A stretch of 64,000 bases of DNA, from the IMG/VR virus record IMGVR_UViG_3300007765_000005, positions 1 to 64,000 of that record. One strand, 5' to 3'. The translations under genes and the position numbers were made by a program. Source of the DNA: a virus. Each line of letters opens with the position of its first letter. Positions within the stretch are counted from its first letter, which is position 1. Under the pieces are notes generated by a model. It saw nothing but the letters and a program-made list of their open reading frames with translations. It ran no database searches and was not told where the DNA came from. Shown piece by piece: positions 3,135-23,356 of this stretch.

Positions 3135-3429
3135 CAGCGTTCCCGATGACGGTTCCGTCAGGAGTCATTTCGAAGGAGTCATTCTCAGGCAGGCCCAAGA
3201 GGGATGCCTGCTTCCGGAGGGTGGATTGGATCTGGGCGTTGCGGTGAGTGATCCGAGCGACCAAGGCTGCCTTGGAGAGCTCCAGCTGCCCCAGACGGGA
3301 AAGATCATTCTGAGACTGCGCCTGCATCTGCTGGATTTGACGCAGGATCTCAGGTGGAATCTTCCCATAGACAGCGGGTCGCGGCTTGTTGTTGATGGCA
3401 GGCGGGTCGGTCGGAGTAGGATGTGCCAC
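3124..3429 (-). CDS. Small hypothetical protein with coiled-coil centre
   Basis: 101 residues from a GTG with CAGGAG nine bases upstream. The N-terminal 25 residues are proline-rich; residues about 25-75 are a Q/L/A-rich helix likely to form a coiled coil (Q-Q-M-Q-A-Q-S-Q-N pattern). The gene ends inside the start of the next structural gene, so translation is probably coupled. No family recognised; perhaps a small tail assembly or chaperone protein, on context alone. Confidence 0.65.
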   Translation of the reverse strand: MAHPTPTDPPAINNKPRPAVYGKIPPEILRQIQQMQAQSQNDLSRLGQLELSKAALVARITHRNAQIQSTLRKQASLLGLPENDSFEMTPDGTVIGNAVGN

Positions 3430-3465
3430 GAGGGCTCCTGGGATAGAAAGGAGAAGGATAGGCTA

Positions 3466-4239
3466 TCAAGCCCAGGGGATGCGAACGCGGCCCGCCCTCC
3501 GGAACTTGACGTGCTCCAGCATGCCGGCCTTGTCGAGATCCTCGTAGAGCATCACCAGGTACTTGAGCTGAACGCTGTCCGGGGTCTCGATATGGATCTC
3601 TCCCTGGGAGGAGGCGGCCCTGTCCAGGTTCGTCACCTGAGAGGGGACCGCAGCAAACTGAGTGAGCTCGGTATGGAGGATGTATCCCTGGGATGGCTTG
3701 GGCATCGCCATGATGGGGGTATCCGTCCGCGTAATCGGAACAAGACCACGCCTCCCCAGGGTCTTGTGTAGAGACTGCATGTCAGCATTGATCTGGTCCT
3801 GGAGCTCCATCGCCGCGATGAGGAACGTGACGTGGGGATCCTCATCCGGAACTGGAGAGACATCCTTCTGGTAGCAGACCGGGAGGCCTGCGGGAGTCCA
3901 GCCTGCGCGGATCCGGTCTCGATCAGGACTCATCCGCTTGACTTCCCGAGCACCCTTCTGAAGCGGCTGTCGAAACCCCGCAGTCCTCGAGTTCTTCATG
4001 TGAATGTAGGACAGGCCCCTCTCCGTCTGGAAGAAGAAATAGGCGAGCCCATCAGGTTCCAGGACAGGAGCGTTCCCATAGAACACGTAGTGCTCTCCTC
4101 CGGGAAGCACGAGTGGACTCTGAGGAGAAAGATCGGGCGCGACCTCCTCGGACTTGAAGATAAAGGGAGCGGCTGTAGCAGTCCCGACAGCACCCAGGCC
4201 GAGGACCTTCAGGAATGCACGTCTTGAGAAGGGATTCAT
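3466..4239 (-). CDS. Phage protein with a twin-arginine (Tat) signal peptide
   Basis: 257 residues. The N-terminus carries S-R-R-A-F-L-K at residues 5-11, a textbook twin-arginine motif. A hydrophobic stretch (L-G-L-G-A-V-G-T-A-T-A-A) and an A-x-A-like cleavage point near residue 23 follow. By family knowledge, such leaders send folded proteins across the inner membrane through the Tat system. The rest is soluble, with no domain I recognise; residues 45-75 and 120-200 look like mixed alpha/beta. Ribosome binding site TGGAG lies eight bases before the ATG. It sits inside the tail gene block, in the same direction. A folded exported protein is unusual in a tail operon; superinfection exclusion or envelope modification are possible roles, but unproven. 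Confidence 0.8.
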   Translation of the reverse strand: MNPFSRRAFLKVLGLGAVGTATAAPFIFKSEEVAPDLSPQSPLVLPGGEHYVFYGNAPVLEPDGLAYFFFQTERGLSYIHMKNSRTAGFRQPLQKGAREVKRMSPDRDRIRAGWTPAGLPVCYQKDVSPVPDEDPHVTFLIAAMELQDQINADMQSLHKTLGRRGLVPITRTDTPIMAMPKPSQGYILHTELTQFAAVPSQVTNLDRAASSQGEIHIETPDSVQLKYLVMLYEDLDKAGMLEHVKFRRAGRVRIPWA

Positions 4240-10111: not shown

Positions 10112-11291
10112 GGGTGCCTCCTTGCCCGGAGGTTACGTCGCGGCCCCTTCCTCGGAAAACCTCCCGACGCCGCCTCTGGCGCTCCCTGATCAGGACAGTG
10201 ATCAGGCCCTCTTCCCCATCGTGATCCAACTTCCGGAGCCGGCTGGCCCCGACGATCTTCAGGAAGTTGCTGGCGTACTTGCGGAGGTTCGCCATGTTCT
10301 CGTTGACGAGAGCCTCGTCGGGAACCAGGGAGAGATCCCAGGACACCCGTTGCTCCGGGGGTGTGGCCACAGTGCCCTTCTCCTTGCCCAGGAGAGCAGC
10401 GAAGCTGTGGGCGGCCGAGGAAACGGCCGAGGGCGAAGCTCCCTTCTCTGGGGCTGTGGTCGGCTCCTCTTCTCCCGGACCCATCTCGTCCAGGACACTC
10501 TCCACCTCAGGAGTTCCCCCGGCAGGGTTAGGGACCAGGCCGTCCTTGCTGATGTCGTAGACGGTGTCCGGGAGGAGGGCCCCATAGTTGCCGATGACCT
10601 CGTACGTGTTGATCCGCATCTTCTGAGCGGTGTTGCAGATGCAAACCACGTTGGCAGGGTCCACGCGACACACGATGATGCGCCGGTTGTGGGGTCCGTA
10701 GTTGCTGGCGTACTGGTGGTTGCCGACGTGGAATCCCGTGTGGCAGGGGCTGTTGTACTCGTCGGAGACCCGGTTCCGGTCCATGTAGGGCTTGGCGCCG
10801 ATGGAGTTGTCGACCGGGTTTCCGTCCTCATCCTTGTGGACGGAGGTGTAGTCGGGATTCACGGCCTTGTACGCCAGGATGTGGCCCTCCAGGTCGATGC
10901 AGATGCCCCGGGACTTCAGGAACCCCCAGAGACTCTTGACAGCGCGCCAGCTGGGGTTCTTGGACAGACGCTGCCAGAACTTCATGATGGCAGTGGGGTC
11001 GTCCCCAGCCTCGGCCATCGCCACCATGCGCTTGTTCATCTCCGGCGGGAACCGACGGCCGTTGTACATCATGTAGCCCTGGTGGAACCGGAACAGACCA
11101 CCGGTCCACTTCTCGATAGCGTGGCCCTTGGAGAACAGGACCAAGAGCCCTTCGATGTCCTCATCCTGGGCCTTGTCCCGAGCCTCCTCGAAGTTGGGAT
11201 CCCCCTTCTTGAGGGTGTAGATATCCCCGTTCAGGACGATGGTGGCGGACTCGCGGCTGATGTTGTAGTCGAACTCGACTTCGGTGGTCAT
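10005..11291 (-). CDS. rIIB: rIIB-like protein, 3' end possibly frameshifted
   Basis: 428 residues from an ATG overlapping the rIIA stop (ATGA), the T4 rII arrangement. The order of features is that of phage rIIB proteins: an N-terminal segment on the pattern D-Y-N-I-S-R-E-S-A-T-I-V-L; F-W-x-R-L-S-K-N-P-S-W-R-A-V; G-x-I-L-A-Y-K-A-V-N-P-D-Y; and H-x-G-F-H-V-G-N-x-x-Y-A-S-N-Y. T4 rIIB is 312 residues. Here the last 38 codons are basic and overlap the next gene by 107 bases. A T4 run at 10155-10159 in the complementary strand may contain one T too many. With three T the protein would end at 10133, just before the next gene's ribosome binding site. rII proteins are membrane-associated and act in exclusion and lysis control in T4. 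Confidence 0.85.
   Translation of the reverse strand: MTTEVEFDYNISRESATIVLNGDIYTLKKGDPNFEEARDKAQDEDIEGLLVLFSKGHAIEKWTGGLFRFHQGYMMYNGRRFPPEMNKRMVAMAEAGDDPTAIMKFWQRLSKNPSWRAVKSLWGFLKSRGICIDLEGHILAYKAVNPDYTSVHKDEDGNPVDNSIGAKPYMDRNRVSDEYNSPCHTGFHVGNHQYASNYGPHNRRIIVCRVDPANVVCICNTAQKMRINTYEVIGNYGALLPDTVYDISKDGLVPNPAGGTPEVESVLDEMGPGEEEPTTAPEKGASPSAVSSAAHSFAALLGKEKGTVATPPEQRVSWDLSLVPDEALVNENMANLRKYASNFLKIVGASRLRKLDHDGEEGLITVLIRERQRRRREVFRGRGRDVTSGQGGTHVRTPTSSELAHVLGGSCRGPRRSRPLWVQPVRSP
10132..10160 (-). promoter_or_regulatory. Bipartite promoter-like signal (GTTTTCC-N16-CGTAAC)
   Basis: On the minus strand GTTTTCC (10154-10160) is followed after exactly 16 bases by CGTAAC (10132-10137), 20 bases before the ATG at 10111. 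The other members have GTTTCC with three T; the extra T lies in the run that also disturbs the rIIB frame. The TAA inside CGTAAC would be the rIIB stop if the extra T were removed. Confidence 0.6.
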
Positions 11292-13624
11292 GACTTCCTC
11301 TGCGTATCCATGAGCTTGACGTACTGGACCCAATGCTCTCGTTCCCCACGGGAACGGAACATGCCCAGGTAGTTCCTATCGCGCTTTCCGCCGAGCAACG
11401 GATACCGTTTGATGATGTCGTCTCGGAGAGCGGCCGGATCCATCGCTGGGGTGTGTCCTGCGGCCTCAAGAAGCGAGAGAGCCCAGCCCACGTATCCGGT
11501 ATGGAGCGTGTGCTCTTGAGCTTTCCAGAGGTGTTCGGCGAACTTGGTGATCTCGTGGTCCGGCCCCAGTTGTTCGACGAGGAACCTGTGGGTGGGGCCC
11601 AACATCTCTCGATCCGAATACGAGGAGCAGTAGGAGTACGTGGAGACAGAACTGAAGCGAGCCCACTTGATGAAATCCTTCAGTTCCGGATGGGTCCTGA
11701 ACAGGTGAAGGAGGGCCTCGATCTTCCACTCTGCGTAGGGCTTCGCAGGGATCTTCGAGCGATCGGCCTTGGGGTTCTTGATCCCGTAGATCTTGGGGAA
11801 CGGAACCTTGAGGTTCCGGAACAGACTCCGCAACGCTTCGATCTCGACGAAGAAGCCGTTCCGAAGGCTCTCCGGAGTGTCCGGGTCGGCGACAGGCCCT
11901 GGGGACACCGCACGGAACCGGTGGGTCAACACGTACACATCGTCAGCAGAGAGGACGACCTCAGCCGCATCCCAGTAGGAGGACCTCTGGCGGGGCCTGC
12001 TATCCTCGAAGTCCTCCTTCAAGGAGAGGACCTTGGCCTTGTGCTGGGCCTGGGTATCGATGGCCGCCTTCTTGGCCGGGTCCGGAGGAGTAAACTCGAG
12101 GGAGCTCATCCTGAGGATTGGGACTCCGGACATCCCCTTCTTTTCGAGAAGATCCCTGATGTGCGCCTCGGCTGCGTCCACGTCAGCCCTCCGCTTTGGC
12201 ATTACGATCCGGTCGTACGTGGATGCAGCGTACCCACGCCAAGTGTGGTGGGTGTCCTTGATCAGGATACGGGTATTCGAGCTGACGGGGAGGGAGAATG
12301 CATCATCCAGGTGAGACCATTTCCCGTAGGTCCGAACAGGCCGGCGCAAGTTGTACAGGGCCGGGAAGACAGGAAGGGCGGTGCCGTAGGATTTCCTATT
12401 CCGGAAGATCTTGATCCTGTCCTCATTGAGGGACGCCAACTCCGGAGGGAGAGGGAGACCCTTCGGGAGAGCCAAGACGCTGATCCGCTTCTCCCAATCA
12501 GTCGTGGAGCTCTTGGTGACCTTGCTGACAAGGTCACGCATGGCCGCCTGGCACAGGAGGGTGAACCTGCGAACAACAGCCTCGACGGTGCGTTCCGTGT
12601 ACTCGAGATCCTCGCGACTGGCGGTGACCGATACCTCTCCGATGTCGCAGCGGAGAATCCCCCCACGGGTGCGGAAAGCGGACTTGTACTCATCTCCGAT
12701 GAAAGGGAGGATGCGTGACTCTCGGACACGGTACGGGATGCAGCCCATGACCAAGGTCCAATCAGGGGACTCCCGAACAAACCCGCCGTTTTCGTTCTCA
12801 AAGGCGTAGACGGCGGGCTTGAGCTTGACGTTGATGTCGGGCTGGGGCTCGAAGTAGCGGAAGAGGTCCCGTGCTGTGTTGTGGAACTTGATGGAATCCG
12901 AGGGTACCACCGGGACCTTGACCTCGAGCCCCGTCTCAAAATCAGATACCAGCCCCTTGGCGCGAAGCCACTCGATGAACTCGTCCTTGAGTCCTTCCAG
13001 GTCGGGGACTGTAGAGAGGCCCACCCACTCATTGGCAGGCAAGAAGACCGGGATCTCCTTGCTCTCAAGGAAGCTCTCGATGTGCTCTCCGAGAGCCGCC
13101 ATGTGGAAGAGAGTCATCTCTCCCTCGTCCGACTCGTCCAACATTGCGCTGTAGACGCAACGGAGACCACCATGCCAGCTGGCCACAGAGAAGCTGTCGT
13201 TGTATGCGAACGGGGACTTGGCGCCGATGCCGAAGGAGCCTACCTCTTCGTCGGTCTCGTCCTTGGTGGTGTCCCCGTACCAGATGAAGGTCCCGAACAC
13301 GCTGGGACCGAGGAGGTCACGGACTTCCTCTGGTTCGTCAGGATCTCCTGCACGGAGCCCGGGACCCCAGTCCCGGATGACCAGTGACGGCTCCAGGCTC
13401 GTGGGGAGGACCACCCGTATCGGGAGATCCGGCTTCCCAGCGGCTCGGTGGGAGTCCCATGCGTTCCCTCCGATCTCTCGCAATACTGCGAGTATCTTGT
13501 CTCCGTATAGGAAATCCCTGAGGATACGGAAGATTTTCGCGGTTCCTTGGGAACGGATCCCAAACCCTGCTGTCTGAAGCCCGCCTTTTCGGACTATTTT
13601 TCTTTGGGTCCTGTGAGTTCGCAT
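11288..13624 (-). CDS. rIIA: rIIA-like protein, GHKL ATPase fold
   Basis: 778 residues. GHKL-type ATPase motifs are visible: R-E-I-G-G-N-A-W-D-S-H (residues 49-59, the N-box), I-R-D-W-G-P-G-L near 85, and V-G-S-F-G-I-G-A-K-S-P-F-A-Y near 130-144 (glycine-rich lid). T4 rIIA (725 residues) has the same fold and partner rIIB, which follows with ATGA overlap. The first ~45 codons are richer in AAA, AGA and ATA than the rest. They match, but are clearly diverged from, a second rIIA 5' end at 14862-14975 beyond the inserted endonuclease, so this 5' end is probably a replacement that came with the element. Upstream lies CGTAAA, a variant of the GTAAC element. Confidence 0.92.
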   Translation of the reverse strand: MRTHRTQRKIVRKGGLQTAGFGIRSQGTAKIFRILRDFLYGDKILAVLREIGGNAWDSHRAAGKPDLPIRVVLPTSLEPSLVIRDWGPGLRAGDPDEPEEVRDLLGPSVFGTFIWYGDTTKDETDEEVGSFGIGAKSPFAYNDSFSVASWHGGLRCVYSAMLDESDEGEMTLFHMAALGEHIESFLESKEIPVFLPANEWVGLSTVPDLEGLKDEFIEWLRAKGLVSDFETGLEVKVPVVPSDSIKFHNTARDLFRYFEPQPDINVKLKPAVYAFENENGGFVRESPDWTLVMGCIPYRVRESRILPFIGDEYKSAFRTRGGILRCDIGEVSVTASREDLEYTERTVEAVVRRFTLLCQAAMRDLVSKVTKSSTTDWEKRISVLALPKGLPLPPELASLNEDRIKIFRNRKSYGTALPVFPALYNLRRPVRTYGKWSHLDDAFSLPVSSNTRILIKDTHHTWRGYAASTYDRIVMPKRRADVDAAEAHIRDLLEKKGMSGVPILRMSSLEFTPPDPAKKAAIDTQAQHKAKVLSLKEDFEDSRPRQRSSYWDAAEVVLSADDVYVLTHRFRAVSPGPVADPDTPESLRNGFFVEIEALRSLFRNLKVPFPKIYGIKNPKADRSKIPAKPYAEWKIEALLHLFRTHPELKDFIKWARFSSVSTYSYCSSYSDREMLGPTHRFLVEQLGPDHEITKFAEHLWKAQEHTLHTGYVGWALSLLEAAGHTPAMDPAALRDDIIKRYPLLGGKRDRNYLGMFRSRGEREHWVQYVKLMDTQRKS

Positions 13625-13642
13625 AGGCAGTCCTCAACCTTA

Positions 13643-13648
13643 TTTACG
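13643..13648 (-). promoter_or_regulatory. CGTAAA element upstream of rIIA
   Basis: CGTAAA on the minus strand, 18 bases before the rIIA ATG. Position fits the GTAAC family, but the last base differs and there is no GTTTCC box. It lies in DNA that probably arrived with the homing endonuclease. Confidence 0.3.
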
Positions 13649-13772
13649 GTTTTGAAGTAAAACTTGTATCATCTGCTCAAAACCCCACAGCCGCGGAAGA
13701 GGGACCCCTTACTGTTCCCGAAAATGCCTCCAAAAAGACCCTGCCAGGAAACCCCCTCGGAGATCCTTTTGC

Positions 13773-14861
13773 GTGGTTTGCGGGGGAGCCACCTCAAGAG
13801 CAGGAGTTCTTTATTGCTCTGGGAAGTGCCGGAAAATTGACAGGCACCCTGAACAGGTCAAGGATTGCCTTGAGTGCGGCACCCAGCATGCGAACCGGAT
13901 CGCCTTTTGCTCCCAGGAGTGCCAGAGGAACCACGGTAGAATAAAGCGTTTGAAGGCTTGCTTCAGATGTGGGAAGGATACAACCAACTCCAAATACTGT
14001 TCGAGTAGTTGCTCAGCGAAGCACCAATGGGCCTGTGGCGGGGAAGATCAAGAACGGGTCCTCCAACAGCTTCTTCGAGGGAATCAAGAACGCTGGGATC
14101 AGAGATCTCCCCAAGAAATCGAAGAGTACATGAGACCCCTACGGGAAGGGAAGAAAGCCCGGCGTGCAGCCATGACGCCAGAAGAACGGGAACGGGAGAG
14201 AGTACGTCTCCGGGAGCAAGCCAGGAGACAGTGGGAACGGTATTCTCCCGAGCAAAAAGAGCAGGTCAGGAACCGACTCCTCAAGGGGACCTTAGAATTT
14301 TGGCAGAGTGCTCGTTCAGAAACAGCTCGGACGACCGCCCGGGCTAACCTCCAGGACTGGAACGCCAAGCGCATGGGGCCCGCATTCTCAGAAAAGCGAG
14401 CCATCTCTGAGAGAAAACGTATAGCATCTTTGAGAGAATTCTATGCCTCACCGAGGAGCACCCCCATCCGGGAGTTCCACTCCAAACGCATGGTGGGAAA
14501 CAACTACAAGAACCGGTGTATTTGGTATGAGGTCCAGAACGGGGACACCATATCCCTTGTCCAAGGGACTTGGGAGAAACGGGTCGCTGAATGGCTTCAC
14601 CGTTGCGGAGTCTTATGGGAACGACATAGTCTCTGCTACGCAGGACACCGGAGATACACGCCTGACTTCTATATTCCAACATTTGGTATCTACATAGAGG
14701 TCAAGGGATATTTCCCAGAAGAAGCCAAAGCCAAAATGCACAAGGTACTGGGTGAGCATAAAGTGGATCTGAGGATATTCCAAAAAGAAGACTGGCCTTT
14801 GGTCGAAAAGCCATTCGACCCCGAAAGATTAGCTTCCTTCCAGGACAGACACCCTGTGTAG
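13773..14861 (+). CDS. Zinc-finger homing endonuclease with PD-(D/E)XK-like nuclease domain, 5' end probably frameshifted
   Basis: 362 residues from GTG. It has three C-x2-C...C-x3-C zinc fingers, but the first Cys of the first finger is the codon just before this GTG. The open frame continues upstream without a start. An ATG at 13724 in the next frame would give M-P-P-K-R-P-C and join correctly if the C5 run at 13752-13756 had four C. Residues about 85-190 are a charged helical region. The C-terminus (about 275-345) holds W-E-K-R-V-A-E-W-L, R-Y-T-P-D-F-Y-I-P and G-I-Y-I-E-V-K-G-Y, the P-D-x(n)-E-x-K pattern of PD-(D/E)XK nucleases (Vsr-like homing enzymes are of this type). Base composition is more A/T-rich than its neighbours. 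It is inserted antisense in rIIA, immediately next to a severed rIIA 5' end. Confidence 0.85.
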   Translation: MVCGGATSRAGVLYCSGKCRKIDRHPEQVKDCLECGTQHANRIAFCSQECQRNHGRIKRLKACFRCGKDTTNSKYCSSSCSAKHQWACGGEDQERVLQQLLRGNQERWDQRSPQEIEEYMRPLREGKKARRAAMTPEERERERVRLREQARRQWERYSPEQKEQVRNRLLKGTLEFWQSARSETARTTARANLQDWNAKRMGPAFSEKRAISERKRIASLREFYASPRSTPIREFHSKRMVGNNYKNRCIWYEVQNGDTISLVQGTWEKRVAEWLHRCGVLWERHSLCYAGHRRYTPDFYIPTFGIYIEVKGYFPEEAKAKMHKVLGEHKVDLRIFQKEDWPLVEKPFDPERLASFQDRHPV

Positions 14862-14975
14862 AGCACTCCGCAGAATCCGGAAGACACGGGCCTTGGTGCG
14901 GTCGGAGATCCCAAACCGGGCCTTCTGCAGACCTCCGGTGGATACGACTTGGCGCTGCACGAGTTGCGGTTTCAT
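14862..14975 (-). pseudogene. rIIA: Severed original 5' end of rIIA (codons 1-38)
   Basis: Read leftward from the ATG at 14975, the translation aligns with the intact rIIA N-terminus. Shared positions include Q-R, G-G-L-Q, F-G-I and F-R-I-L-R, and the match stops at codon 38, where the endonuclease stop codon begins on the other strand. The ATG directly follows the stop of the upstream gene (TAG-GATG), with TAAGGA ten bases before it, so this is the position where rIIA originally began in the operon. Codons here are G/C-ending (phage style), unlike the intact copy's first codons. If translated it would give a useless 48-residue peptide ending in TAA inside the endonuclease gene. Confidence 0.85.
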
Positions 14976-14976
14976 C

Positions 14977-15756
14977 CTACGTGTCCTTACCGGTCTTGGT
15001 TTCCCGAGGAGCGTGCGCTACACAGCGTTCCGGTCCGTCATGGTAGAGTCTGCAGTTGTTCCCAACCCCCCCGATGTAGAAGCCGGTCTCAGGGTCTGCA
15101 CACAGGCCAGGAAAGCCTGTATGGGAGTCCTTGGAGGCCGTCCTACGGTTCCCCAGAGGAACGGGGCTACGGTACTCCCCCTTCTGGTATTGGGGCTTCC
15201 CAGGGAGCCCTGCGGAGCACATATAGCAGTCCTCCGGGCCGTTGAACCGGCGAACGTTCCGAGGACGTACCTGGTTGCAGAGATACTCCTCGTCCTCGGT
15301 TCCCTCCTTGGGGACTCTCTGGAAGTTGGGGTGCCCGCAGTCCATGATCCGGTGGGGAGAGGGAGCCTTGGGTTTTTCCGGAATCCGGATCCCAGGGGAT
15401 TCCGTCCTCTTGGAGGGAGGCTTCTTGGCCGGTTCCTTGGTCTCTGGGGGGATGAACAGGTACTCGCCATCCTTCTTGAACAGCTTGGCCTGGATTCCCG
15501 CAGCCACGACCTTGTCGAACAGGCTCCGGCGCAGACGGCTCCGTCCCAGGGCCTTGCGGACCAGGGGGATCCAGTGAGTCTGCTTGGGATACTCCTTGCC
15601 TGCGGACTCCAGCTCCAGGAGGGCCTTGCGAAGCGCCTGGGCTGCCGCGAGCTCCGAGGTGTCCCTGGCCGGCTCTGCCGGAGGAGGAGCCTTCTTGGTG
15701 GTGGGGGTCTTGGGTCCCTTGGACCAGTTCATGATCAGGTCGTCTACCGATGCCAC
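14977..15756 (-). CDS. Hypothetical protein with wHTH-like centre and Cys-rich C-terminus
   Basis: 259 residues from GTG, chosen because CGGAGG lies five bases upstream; the start overlaps the end of the preceding gene. Residues about 35-105 are helical and basic (L-V-R-K-A-L-G-R-S-R-L-R-R-S-L-F-D-K-V-V-A-A-G), like a winged-helix arrangement. A P/K-rich linker follows. The C-terminus has D-C-G-H-P, D-C-Y-M-C, L-C-A-D and N-C-R-L-Y, possible metal ligands. No family recognised. It would originally have been followed directly by rIIA. Confidence 0.7.
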   Translation of the reverse strand: MASVDDLIMNWSKGPKTPTTKKAPPPAEPARDTSELAAAQALRKALLELESAGKEYPKQTHWIPLVRKALGRSRLRRSLFDKVVAAGIQAKLFKKDGEYLFIPPETKEPAKKPPSKRTESPGIRIPEKPKAPSPHRIMDCGHPNFQRVPKEGTEDEEYLCNQVRPRNVRRFNGPEDCYMCSAGLPGKPQYQKGEYRSPVPLGNRRTASKDSHTGFPGLCADPETGFYIGGVGNNCRLYHDGPERCVAHAPRETKTGKDT

Positions 15757-15938
15757 GGATACCTCCGACGGACGTTCGACTCGCCCTCCTGCTGCGCCTG
15801 GGTTTGGACGTTTTGGAAGAGAACGAGCCACTGACGAGCCTCCTCATCCGACATCTCAGAGATCCGCTCTCGGACCAGGTTCATGGCGTGCCCTCCCCGA
15901 GTGCGGCGGACCAGGATTTGTAGGCTTCTCTTGCTCAT
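15744..15938 (-). CDS. Small hypothetical protein
   Basis: 64 residues. The ATG overlaps the stop of the upstream gene (ATGA) and its own stop lies just inside the start of the next one. The N-terminal 20 residues are basic; residues 20-50 form an acidic/amphipathic helix (I-S-E-M-S-D-E-E-A-R-Q-W). No family recognised. Overlap with both neighbours and matching codon bias support it. Confidence 0.65.
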   Translation of the reverse strand: MSKRSLQILVRRTRGGHAMNLVRERISEMSDEEARQWLVLFQNVQTQAQQEGESNVRRRYPWHR

Positions 15939-16396
15939 CGGTTCTTCCAGCAGAGGTCCGCACAGACCTGGTTCTTTTTCTTGGAGAGGAAGAGGGCGCT
16001 CCCGCAGCTGGAGCAACGCTCGGTCTCGAGAGCCTTCAGGTAGGCGTCCCGCATCCTCTCGTGCATCCGGTGGGTGATCCGCGGGATCGTGCCCGTCCGA
16101 TTCACCCGCCTCTCCTTCCCGACACCCCGAGTACGGTTCTTGGTGTGAAGGAGAACCACGCGGATGGCGTCGGAACCAGATGTCCGGACGCAAAGCGCGC
16201 CGTTGGGATCGAAGGAGTCGACCACGACCGTCGTGTAGACGGTGATCCACAGGGAGGTGTTGGGCACCTGGCGCTGATAGACCTTCTCCTGAGTTCCGGG
16301 GATCTCCGTCGGGGAGAACCCACAGCTTTCCAGCTTGGTGATCAGCTCACGAGCCAAGCTGCAACGGTCGGAAAAGCTCCGGGGGTCGTATCGCAT
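15935..16396 (-). CDS. Hypothetical protein with C-terminal zinc ribbon
   Basis: 153 residues; ATG with GGAGGGAG upstream and a bipartite promoter-like signal. Residues 40-95 form an alternating beta pattern (V-Y-Q-R-Q-V, L-W-I-T-V-Y-T-T-V-V-V, I-R-V-V-L-L). The C-terminus has C-S-S-C-G-S-A-L and V-C-A-D-L-C-W, a probable zinc ribbon. No family recognised. First gene of a leftward group with the next two genes and perhaps once with rIIA/rIIB. Confidence 0.7.
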   Translation of the reverse strand: MRYDPRSFSDRCSLARELITKLESCGFSPTEIPGTQEKVYQRQVPNTSLWITVYTTVVVDSFDPNGALCVRTSGSDAIRVVLLHTKNRTRGVGKERRVNRTGTIPRITHRMHERMRDAYLKALETERCSSCGSALFLSKKKNQVCADLCWKNR

Positions 16397-21872: not shown

Positions 21873-23356
21873 CACAACCCCAGGTCGATCTTGTCGCCCG
21901 TCTTCTTGGCCATCTCGGGGACAACATCGTTGGTCGTGAAGATGCGGCGGGCAGGCCAGAGTACCCCGGCATAGAACTCTTTGAACTTCGCGTCCTCTCG
22001 AGCCTTGAGGTGCTGGATCTTCACCAGGTTTGATTCCTCGAGCTGATCATCGACCCAAGAAGCGGTCACGATATCCGAGGAGCGCTCGGCCTCGTTCGCA
22101 TAGCTGAGGTGCGTCAGGTTGTAGCGGCCTCCGTTCTTCTCTGCGGACTTGAACCCTTCCCGGGAGATCTGGAACAACACCAACATAGCGATCCCCAAGC
22201 CCTGGTTGAAGGACATGGAGAGCTTCTTGATGTCCCGGAGAACCTCGTTGAGCCGCTCCGTGGTGGAGTTGTGCCGGTTCCGGGAGGACATCAGGCCGGC
22301 GTGGTCCACGACTACCATGCGAACCGAGGGGTCCTGGCTGAACCGGAGCTCTGCCTTCGAGCGGAGATCATTGACGTTGAAGTCTGCCTTGAGCGCGTCC
22401 GCCACCTCGATGTACATGGATCCATACAGGTTCTCGGTATCCATGAGATCCGGAACCACGTAGTCAAAGAGGAACGTCTTCTCTTCCGCGGAGAGTTCTG
22501 CGTCCCGCATCTTGGTGTAGTCGAGACTCTTCTTGATTCCCAGCTTGCGACGGGTATCCCGGAACTTGGGATGGCAGGTATGGATGGCGTAGATCATCCG
22601 CCGCACCTGCGCGTATGGCATCTCCAGAGAGATGAACACTGAGGAGTGCCTGTAGTAGATCGCTTGGTTGTAGATCCAGTTGACAGCGAGAGTGGACTTC
22701 AGGCCTCCAGTGAAGGCTGCGTGGAGCCACATCTGCTGTCGCTTGGCCCCCTTGAGGACAACATCCATCTGCTCGATGCCTGAGAACTGCCCCAAGCCCG
22801 CGATAGGGTCTTCTTCCACCCGCTCGTACTCCTCCTTGAAGGAGTCCCCATCCGTCGTAGCGTTCCCCGAGAGAGGGACCCCCGATAGGGGGGTAGTGAC
22901 ATCCCCAGCGCGGTCCACGACATACTGTAGGGCCTGTACAGGCCCTCTGAGGTGTACTTCCTTGCGCTGGCCTGGTTCCTTGATGGATAGACCGCGAACC
23001 GCAATCTGGCTGGCGTCCTTGAGGATCTCCGATGTCAACCGGAGACGTCGATCTTCCGCGACGCGTTCCAGAAGCTGGAGAAAGTCTCCCTGGATCTTTG
23101 GGTCGGCTGCGGCCACCGTCTCGAACCGGTCGACGACGGTGAGCTGGCCTGCGATGGTGAAGTGCTGACGCACTGTAGAGGCGTCAGGGACATGCCGGTA
23201 CTGGGAGACGAAATCCTGAATCCAGGACCAAACCGCCTCGTCCTCCTCCACAGGAAACTCGACCCCAGAGGCCCGCAATGCTTGGGCGTTTCGGAGGAAG
23301 GAGTCCTTGTCGTCGGAGGGGCTGTTTCTGAACGTAGAGCGCAGAAGAACCTTCAC
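21872..23356 (-). CDS. DnaB-like replicative helicase
   Basis: 494 residues from a GTG overlapping the upstream stop (GTGA). The C-terminal half is a RecA-like motor. It has a Walker A-type loop F-T-G-G-L-K-S-T near 217, then S-S-V-F-I-S-L-E-M-P (motif H1a region). It also has Walker B V-R-M-V-V-V-D-H near 345, the L-V-L-F-Q-I-S-R-E-G strand, and L-S-Y-A-N-E-A-E-R-S-S-D. The N-terminal 180 residues are helical like DnaB N-terminal and linker domains. It should unwind DNA at the fork as a hexamer, served by the polymerase downstream. Confidence 0.9.
   Translation of the reverse strand: MKVLLRSTFRNSPSDDKDSFLRNAQALRASGVEFPVEEDEAVWSWIQDFVSQYRHVPDASTVRQHFTIAGQLTVVDRFETVAAADPKIQGDFLQLLERVAEDRRLRLTSEILKDASQIAVRGLSIKEPGQRKEVHLRGPVQALQYVVDRAGDVTTPLSGVPLSGNATTDGDSFKEEYERVEEDPIAGLGQFSGIEQMDVVLKGAKRQQMWLHAAFTGGLKSTLAVNWIYNQAIYYRHSSVFISLEMPYAQVRRMIYAIHTCHPKFRDTRRKLGIKKSLDYTKMRDAELSAEEKTFLFDYVVPDLMDTENLYGSMYIEVADALKADFNVNDLRSKAELRFSQDPSVRMVVVDHAGLMSSRNRHNSTTERLNEVLRDIKKLSMSFNQGLGIAMLVLFQISREGFKSAEKNGGRYNLTHLSYANEAERSSDIVTASWVDDQLEESNLVKIQHLKAREDAKFKEFYAGVLWPARRIFTTNDVVPEMAKKTGDKIDLGL

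Follow-up and report, generated by a model that had tools for sequence, protein, structure and literature searches.

The window analyzed here is a stretch of 64,000 nucleotides (positions 1 to 64,000 of the virus record IMGVR_UViG_3300007765_000005, which has 66,961 bases), and all coordinates refer to it. It contains a complete rIIA gene, followed by rIIB as identified in a PHROG search, and on the 5' side of rIIA an antisense endonuclease reading frame, beyond which lies a second rIIA 5' end, referred to below as the fragment. This arrangement had been picked out in an earlier note, which proposed that a homing endonuclease had entered rIIA and supplied the gene with a foreign 5' end. The identical arrangement is found in a second IMG/VR record of 101,418 bases. 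A comparison over 22,961 bases showed a single mismatch, which lies at 22967 and not in the locus, and the two records may share reads.

The second rIIA 5' end is real. Searching the 66,961-base record with rIIA locates it at 14838-14972 (E 6.1e-6), tblastn matches the rIIA N-terminus to it with 45% identity over 51 amino acids (E 1e-9), and the local alignment of the first 45 residues of the intact copy with those of the fragment scores 94, a value that none of 20000 shuffles reached (maximum 49). The likeness of the fragment to the intact N-terminus, which the earlier note had pointed out, far exceeds chance. Also as described there, the fragment has G/C-rich codons (G+C content at third codon positions, GC3, 0.71) and keeps the operon position and spacing of rIIA, its ATG lying 1 nucleotide past the stop of an upstream gene of 284 amino acids, of which another member of the phage group (locus L137) has a homologue. 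Since L137 carries homologues of both this gene and a neighboring gene of 153 amino acids, the two belong to the phage group; L137 has no rIIA match between its 284-amino-acid gene and the gene g383.

To compare rIIA loci, we kept the best 80 of at least 558 IMG/VR loci from one profile and 36 from a closer profile; 121 fetched loci were compared, and after duplicates and loci without a plus-strand match were dropped they yielded 107 distinct N-termini. The closest rIIA relative among the fetched loci, L015 (37-40% identity over the whole protein), is syntenic with the window (polymerase, small gene, SprT-like gene, rIIA, rIIB, g383), has a single rIIA 5' end and contains no match to the endonuclease. 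A search for a second rIIA 5' end, which in relatives lacking the endonuclease would have spoken against the proposal, gave nothing convincing at the 107 other rIIA loci (the window, as positive control, gave E 1e-9); a match at L086 (28% over 32 amino acids, E 0.021) was weak and was taken as chance. No relative of this rIIA was confirmed in genome contigs, and no DNA match was found in the annotated phage collection by megablast. Two other arrangements were also considered. A split gene of the Aeh1 nrdA type does not apply, rIIA being complete from ATG 13624, and no Rfam match to a self-splicing intron was found up to E 1 on either strand between 11000 and 16500; because rIIA is complete, an intron is not needed.

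A 14-residue insertion (codons 95-108, window 13301-13342, minus strand) is common to the window and L015 rIIA proteins and is lacking in 20 other aligned relatives, and could serve as a clade marker.

Where the fragment breaks

The earlier note had the fragment break exactly at the endonuclease stop codon, which is probably incorrect. In tblastn, the match of the fragment to L015 rIIA (46.7% over 45 amino acids, E 2e-9) continues past that stop to residue 45, so that the stop, which is the antisense of rIIA codon 39, probably sits within rIIA DNA and does not mark the break. Read on the opposite strand, codons 45 to 39 give the last endonuclease residues QDRHPV and its stop, and past codon 45 the fragment frame runs for 3 further codons into the antisense of the endonuclease before a stop at 14829, giving 48 amino acids in total. 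When scored against L015, 12 of 921 stop-free 6-mers of the endonuclease antisense strand did as well as fragment residues 40-45, which lie beyond the endonuclease stop. Counting against rIIA similarity as far as codon 45, relatives of the endonuclease align with its terminal FQD (as FKE, FKD or FLE), of which QD is the antisense of codons 44-45. Because the relatives share this end and the tblastx match between the fragment and the intact copy stops at codon 40, the join is placeable only within codons 39-45.

Features of the rIIA locus in the window, with the basis on which each was assigned
Feature	Position	Strand	Basis or remark
rIIA, intact, probably chimeric	11288..13624	-	778 amino acids, open throughout; PHROG 612 RIIA, E 6.4e-81; codons 46-778 group with L015 rIIA
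rIIA codons 1-45, presumed replacement (donor) 5' end	13490..13624	-	L015 rank 52/107; -2.4 standard deviations; GC3 0.53; codon likelihood 3/227
Presumed junction of donor and resident rIIA, codons ~42-52	13469-13501	-	Similarity along the protein
Leader of intact rIIA, with GAGGA Shine-Dalgarno-like sequence	13625..13655	-	Sequence
Endonuclease reading frame, stop TAG 14859-14861	13656..14861	+	Antisense to rIIA; PHROG endonuclease / Holliday junction resolvase families, E 5e-11
Four zinc-finger-like modules, presumed DNA-binding part	13665..14012	+	Pattern C-x2-C-x(8-14)-[YF]C-x3-C
Predicted PD-(D/E)XK nuclease domain, motif YTPDFY..IYIEVKGY	14496..14858; catalytic-type residues 14664-14705	+	Predicted fold and conserved residues
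Zone common to rIIA codons 39-45 (-) and last endonuclease codons QDRHPV* (+)	14841..14861		Join located here
Second rIIA 5' end, presumably the original one, severed; codons 1-45, ATG 14975	14841..14975	-	tblastn against L015 and against intact rIIA
Upstream gene, 284 amino acids	14977..15831	-	Homologue in L137, 39% over 225 amino acids, E 4e-34, beside homologues of other window genes

The endonuclease frame and its predicted nuclease domain

The earlier note gave the endonuclease gene as 13773-14861, antisense and inserted between the two rIIA ends. Its position and orientation stand, but the reading frame opens 117 bases earlier, 31 nucleotides from the rIIA ATG, and contains four zinc-finger-like modules (13665-13727, 13770-13829, 13866-13922 and 13959-14012) of a pattern that appears even once in only 1 of 1000 shuffled frames. 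The GTG at 13773 is the first ordinary start; it lies downstream of the first module and cuts the second. Since the frame holds no ATG, GTG or TTG from 13656 to 13772, the start of the gene is uncertain.

Apart from the PHROG families, sequence searches returned a weak Pfam match to Phage_endo_I (E 8e-5, below the family cut-off) and, in the PDB, T7 endonuclease I (E 0.003). Because the model of the full-length protein was poor, particularly in its N-terminal part (mean predicted local distance difference test, pLDDT, 63), the nuclease domain was predicted alone with AlphaFold2 (mean pLDDT 91.9). This domain is confidently predicted to have the core fold and motif of what we take to be the PD-(D/E)XK type, and D298, E309 and K311 are invariant in the window protein and four relatives. 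Its structural alignments to TnsA (Z 7.8), I-Bth0305I (Z 7.1) and Vsr (Z 7.0) all fall under Z 8 and alone are no proof of kinship, and neither the full-length nor the domain model had a Foldseek match at E 0.001 or better. In its predicted core fold and catalytic-type residues the protein resembles the PD-(D/E)XK and Vsr-like homing endonucleases, a group that includes F-CphI and I-Ssp6803I and in which I-Bth0305I is the match by structure; unlike them, it has an N-terminal array of four zinc-finger-like modules.

A profile search found relatives of the endonuclease at four other loci, a search with the single protein returned only its own record, and 48 annotated phage records had partial matches at E 0.01 or better. 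No relative was confirmed in bacterial or archaeal genomes, and no further copy occurs in the phage's own record. We also examined the antisense open reading frames (ORFs) just 5' of rIIA at loci with at least 800 nucleotides upstream, excluding ORFs mostly covered by a longer plus-strand ORF. At E 1e-4, one of the 47 such ORFs of 100 amino acids or more in 104 loci matched an endonuclease-type motif (NUMOD3). This gene, on a phage contig of 291,658 bases (L056), was assigned by Pfam and has an HNH-like motif by eye; it lies at 3150-4013 (minus strand), antisense between an upstream gene and an uninterrupted rIIA. Like the window endonuclease, it is an antisense nuclease-type gene with its 5' end beside the rIIA start. 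It differs in that its family is unrelated, it is placed between genes, and no rIIA stub was found at L056.

Which rIIA 5' end is resident

The relationship of the intact rIIA to L015 changes along its length. L015 ranks first of the 107 relatives for intact codons 46-100 and for codons 46-400, and maximum likelihood (ML) trees (21 of the 107 N-termini with the intact and fragment copies) join intact rIIA and L015 over codons 46-100 with support 96/96. For intact codons 1-45, L015 ranks only 52nd (score 64), whereas for the fragment it ranks first (score 101), and no other of the 107 favors the fragment over the intact end as strongly. Along the intact protein, a steady build-up of L015-like residues begins only near codon 52. 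L015, a relative without the element and with a single rIIA 5' end, therefore has the 5' end closest to the fragment. In codons 1-45, the identity of intact rIIA to L015 (16/45) is 2.4 standard deviations (SD) below the expectation from the next 46 codons, as compared with 1.1 SD below for the fragment (21/45) (pairwise regression, 18 loci, 153 pairs).

Codon use gives a similar picture. GC3 is 0.53 in codons 1-45 of intact rIIA and 0.77 in the rest of the gene, with 0.58 in the endonuclease, which bears out the A/T-richer start beside the endonuclease that the earlier note had remarked on. The comparison of these codons with the remainder that it had recommended also found them atypical: among native sequences, 3 of 227 blocks and 1 of 18 gene starts had a codon likelihood as low under native usage, versus 17 and 5, respectively, for the fragment. 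Because similarity ranks, pairwise identity, GC3 and codon likelihood agree, we regard the fragment as the probable resident start and codons 1-45 of intact rIIA as probably acquired from elsewhere. The donor was presumably a related phage and not a distant one, since the intact 5' end is nearer to the fragment (94) than to any of the 107 relatives (best 90). The chimera signal in ranks and codon use is accordingly supported but not proven.

A number of results weigh against this reading. One close relative only, L015, bears the weight of the chimera signal. Within the intact 5' end, G14-L16 and R33 are L015-like as opposed to most other relatives, and of 198 pairs of similar closeness 13 were as low in identity as intact rIIA and L015, and 49 as low as the fragment and L015, which makes the signal a modest one. 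GC3 as low as that of intact codons 1-45 occurs in 9 of 244 native 45-codon blocks, native gene starts range from 0.44 to 0.80, and the endonuclease is not further from native usage than the fragment (codon likelihood per codon, -1.247 and -1.255, respectively). In ML trees of the 45 columns the fragment joins L015 with support 57, and no grouping is rejected by approximately unbiased (AU) tests (p-AU 0.479 for intact with fragment and 0.276 for intact with L015). Counts of nucleotide sites favor fragment with L015 over intact with L015 by 31 to 17 (p 0.06) and over fragment with intact by 31 to 24 (p 0.42), and the former comparison gives 8 to 3 (p 0.23) for amino acids. When IMG/VR was searched for the replacement 5' end, another suggestion of the earlier note, only the phage's own second record matched and no donor with an intact-type 5' end was found, in a search by exact 8-residue patterns from 57 amino acids that reaches close relatives only. 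The endonuclease gene itself may be 5'-truncated, have an unusual start or be decaying, its start perhaps being lost. Finally, none of six fetched loci with other members of the nuclease family (five distinct proteins, those of L007 and L096 being identical) has a convincing repeated gene end around the nuclease gene. Tblastx matches at L098 (E 4e-4, lying opposite two plus-strand frames, each copy being interrupted by a stop codon) and at L099 (E 0.002, in mechanical frames) were dismissed by eye.

With these points in mind, the polarity of the event could be reversed: the intact rIIA would be wholly resident, and the endonuclease with a foreign stub would have entered between rIIA and its upstream neighbor, interrupting no coding sequence. 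The AU tests do not reject this, and of the 107 N-termini, 94 score higher with the intact 5' end, 12 with the fragment, and one equally with both. A donor of the L015 lineage would likewise make the fragment L015-like, and L056 has a nuclease-type gene between genes at just this place. If the intact gene were resident throughout, however, its codons 1-45 should be as L015-like as the remainder, at odds with the rank of 52 and the shortfall in identity, and it is the stub, not the intact start, that has native-like GC3 and tight operon spacing. We regard a reversed polarity as unlikely.

A proposed homing-type origin and its alternatives

Our best reading is that the locus is a 5', phage version of the gene-hybrid elements of fungal mitochondria, with a real structure and a moderately supported mechanism. 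We consider it reasonably probable, though well short of certain, that the resident rIIA acquired a donor 5' end, joined about 45 codons in, through a homing-type event that left the gene complete. In a related donor phage, the endonuclease gene would have lain antisense just 5' of rIIA, an arrangement made plausible by L056, where the NUMOD3 gene is antisense 5' of an uninterrupted rIIA. During a mixed infection the resident rIIA would have been cut, we infer by this enzyme, in the conserved stretch around codons 45-52, where we take the N-box of the GHKL ATPase to begin. Recombination with the donor rIIA would have repaired the downstream side of the break, so that the donor leader and first 45-50 or so codons were joined in frame. 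On the upstream side, the severed resident codons 1-45 would have been joined to the 3' end of the endonuclease, which would have taken its stop codon from antisense rIIA; this join would have been illegitimate because donor and recipient had no shared sequence there. The outcome would be a complete chimeric rIIA, whose product presumably functions, and a dead 5' stub at the old operon position. A cut around codons 45-52 would thus explain both boundaries, the severed start ending at codons 39-45 and the foreign start at about codons 42-52. As regards the earlier note, which held that a foreign copy of the first 45 or so codons had joined in frame and allowed rIIA to survive the insertion, the open frame of 778 amino acids, the L015 ranks and the codon use favor the claim, but the ML tests reject no grouping.

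A more ambitious version of this mechanism is conceivable but doubtful. A single evolved cassette, made up of the endonuclease together with the replacement 5' end (leader, ribosome-binding site and roughly 45 initial rIIA codons), would home into the conserved GHKL N-box of phage rIIA genes, with a cargo that repairs the gene and, by its divergence, protects it from recutting. If so, it would be a phage mobile element carrying its own gene-start repair part.

Under ordinary phage mosaicism the nuclease, which might be of a resolvase or repair type, would be a passenger in illegitimate recombination between two related phages. By family, the enzyme is best matched to T7-type endonuclease and to Holliday junction resolvase, the start codon is doubtful, and site-specific cleavage by the enzyme is only predicted. 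Its place between the broken ends, its multi-finger part and its scattered relatives in other phage contigs suit a mobile endonuclease better, and the occurrence of nuclease genes at exchange boundaries, a pattern described for phages in the available text of PMC10448857, also counts in our view against a passenger role. Mosaicism of this kind thus seems rather unlikely. Local duplication, with copies of the rIIA 5' end on either side of the inserted gene and later divergence, would account for an intact 5' end that is nearer to the fragment than to any of the 107 relatives and is compatible with the tree of intact with fragment. It would need a divergence within one genome as deep as that between the two copies (50.4% nucleotide identity over codons 1-45, versus 55.6% between fragment and L015, a difference that is not significant) while the rest of rIIA remained L015-like, and we judge it improbable. 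An assembly artefact joining two strains is very improbable even for metagenomic records, given that the two agree over the locus and, in the bases compared, differ only at the one site outside it.

The homing-type origin that we prefer may be compared with the mobile endonuclease ORFs of fungal mitochondria, which are found in Allomyces atp6 and in Glomus atp6, atp9, cox2 and nad3 and, in the cases described in the available text (PMC3630166), are LAGLIDADG or GIY-YIG genes that replaced C-terminal (3') ends. As in those elements, an endonuclease gene lies within coding sequence between two copies of one gene end, one of which is fused in frame to the resident gene, and the severed native end (here in a frame that stops after 48 amino acids) lies beyond the endonuclease. 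The fungal native ends group with close relatives and the inserted ends do not, a pattern with which the ranks and codon use agree here, whereas the trees reject no grouping. In addition, hybrid transcripts were shown for the fungal elements, while the rIIA hybrid is read from the sequence. Since a 5' end with its own leader is replaced here and the endonuclease is antisense (and of the predicted PD-(D/E)XK type), the phage locus would work like a fungal element and not be a member of that group. The resemblance drawn in the earlier note is therefore apt in its logic, although the fungal cases described in that source replace 3' ends.

Free-standing phage homing endonuclease genes in coding sequence include mobE in Aeh1 nrdA and mobA in T4 gene 60, as described in the available part of PMC2988022. 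These share with the present case a homing endonuclease gene within conserved and important coding sequence, but their two gene pieces make separate polypeptides, whereas the window has a complete rIIA and, as its severed piece, a short stub. Vibrio phage KVP40 has a GIY-YIG endonuclease gene near rIIA/rIIB (PMC3468402, in the part available), likewise in the rII neighborhood but beyond rIIB and not within rIIA. No endonuclease inside rIIA is described in the available parts of PMC3468402 or PMC7344957, rIIA is not mentioned in those of PMC2988022 or PMC10448857, and the literature searched, which excludes most subscription papers, yielded no account of a phage endonuclease gene that replaces a gene end.

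If the preferred reading is true, phage homing endonuclease genes can enter a coding region and replace the end of the gene that they break, with no need for an intron, an intein or a split protein, and a device of fungal mitochondria would extend to phages and to 5' ends. It would also suggest one route by which chimeric phage genes arise, with the conserved start of the rIIA ATPase domain as a testable target.

Two further observations concern the genes upstream of rIIA. The genes of 153 and 284 amino acids in the window (14977-16396, minus strand) are homologous to genes in L137 (10868-14501), and neither was matched in the fetched stretch of L015, though L015 has rIIA and rIIB. Just before rIIA, L015 has a short frame, MSEEEARQWVVLLRNLQ... 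(3805-3870, plus strand), which resembles a short frame of the window, MSDEEARQWLVLFQNVQ... (15744-15854, minus strand), between the 153- and 284-amino-acid genes.

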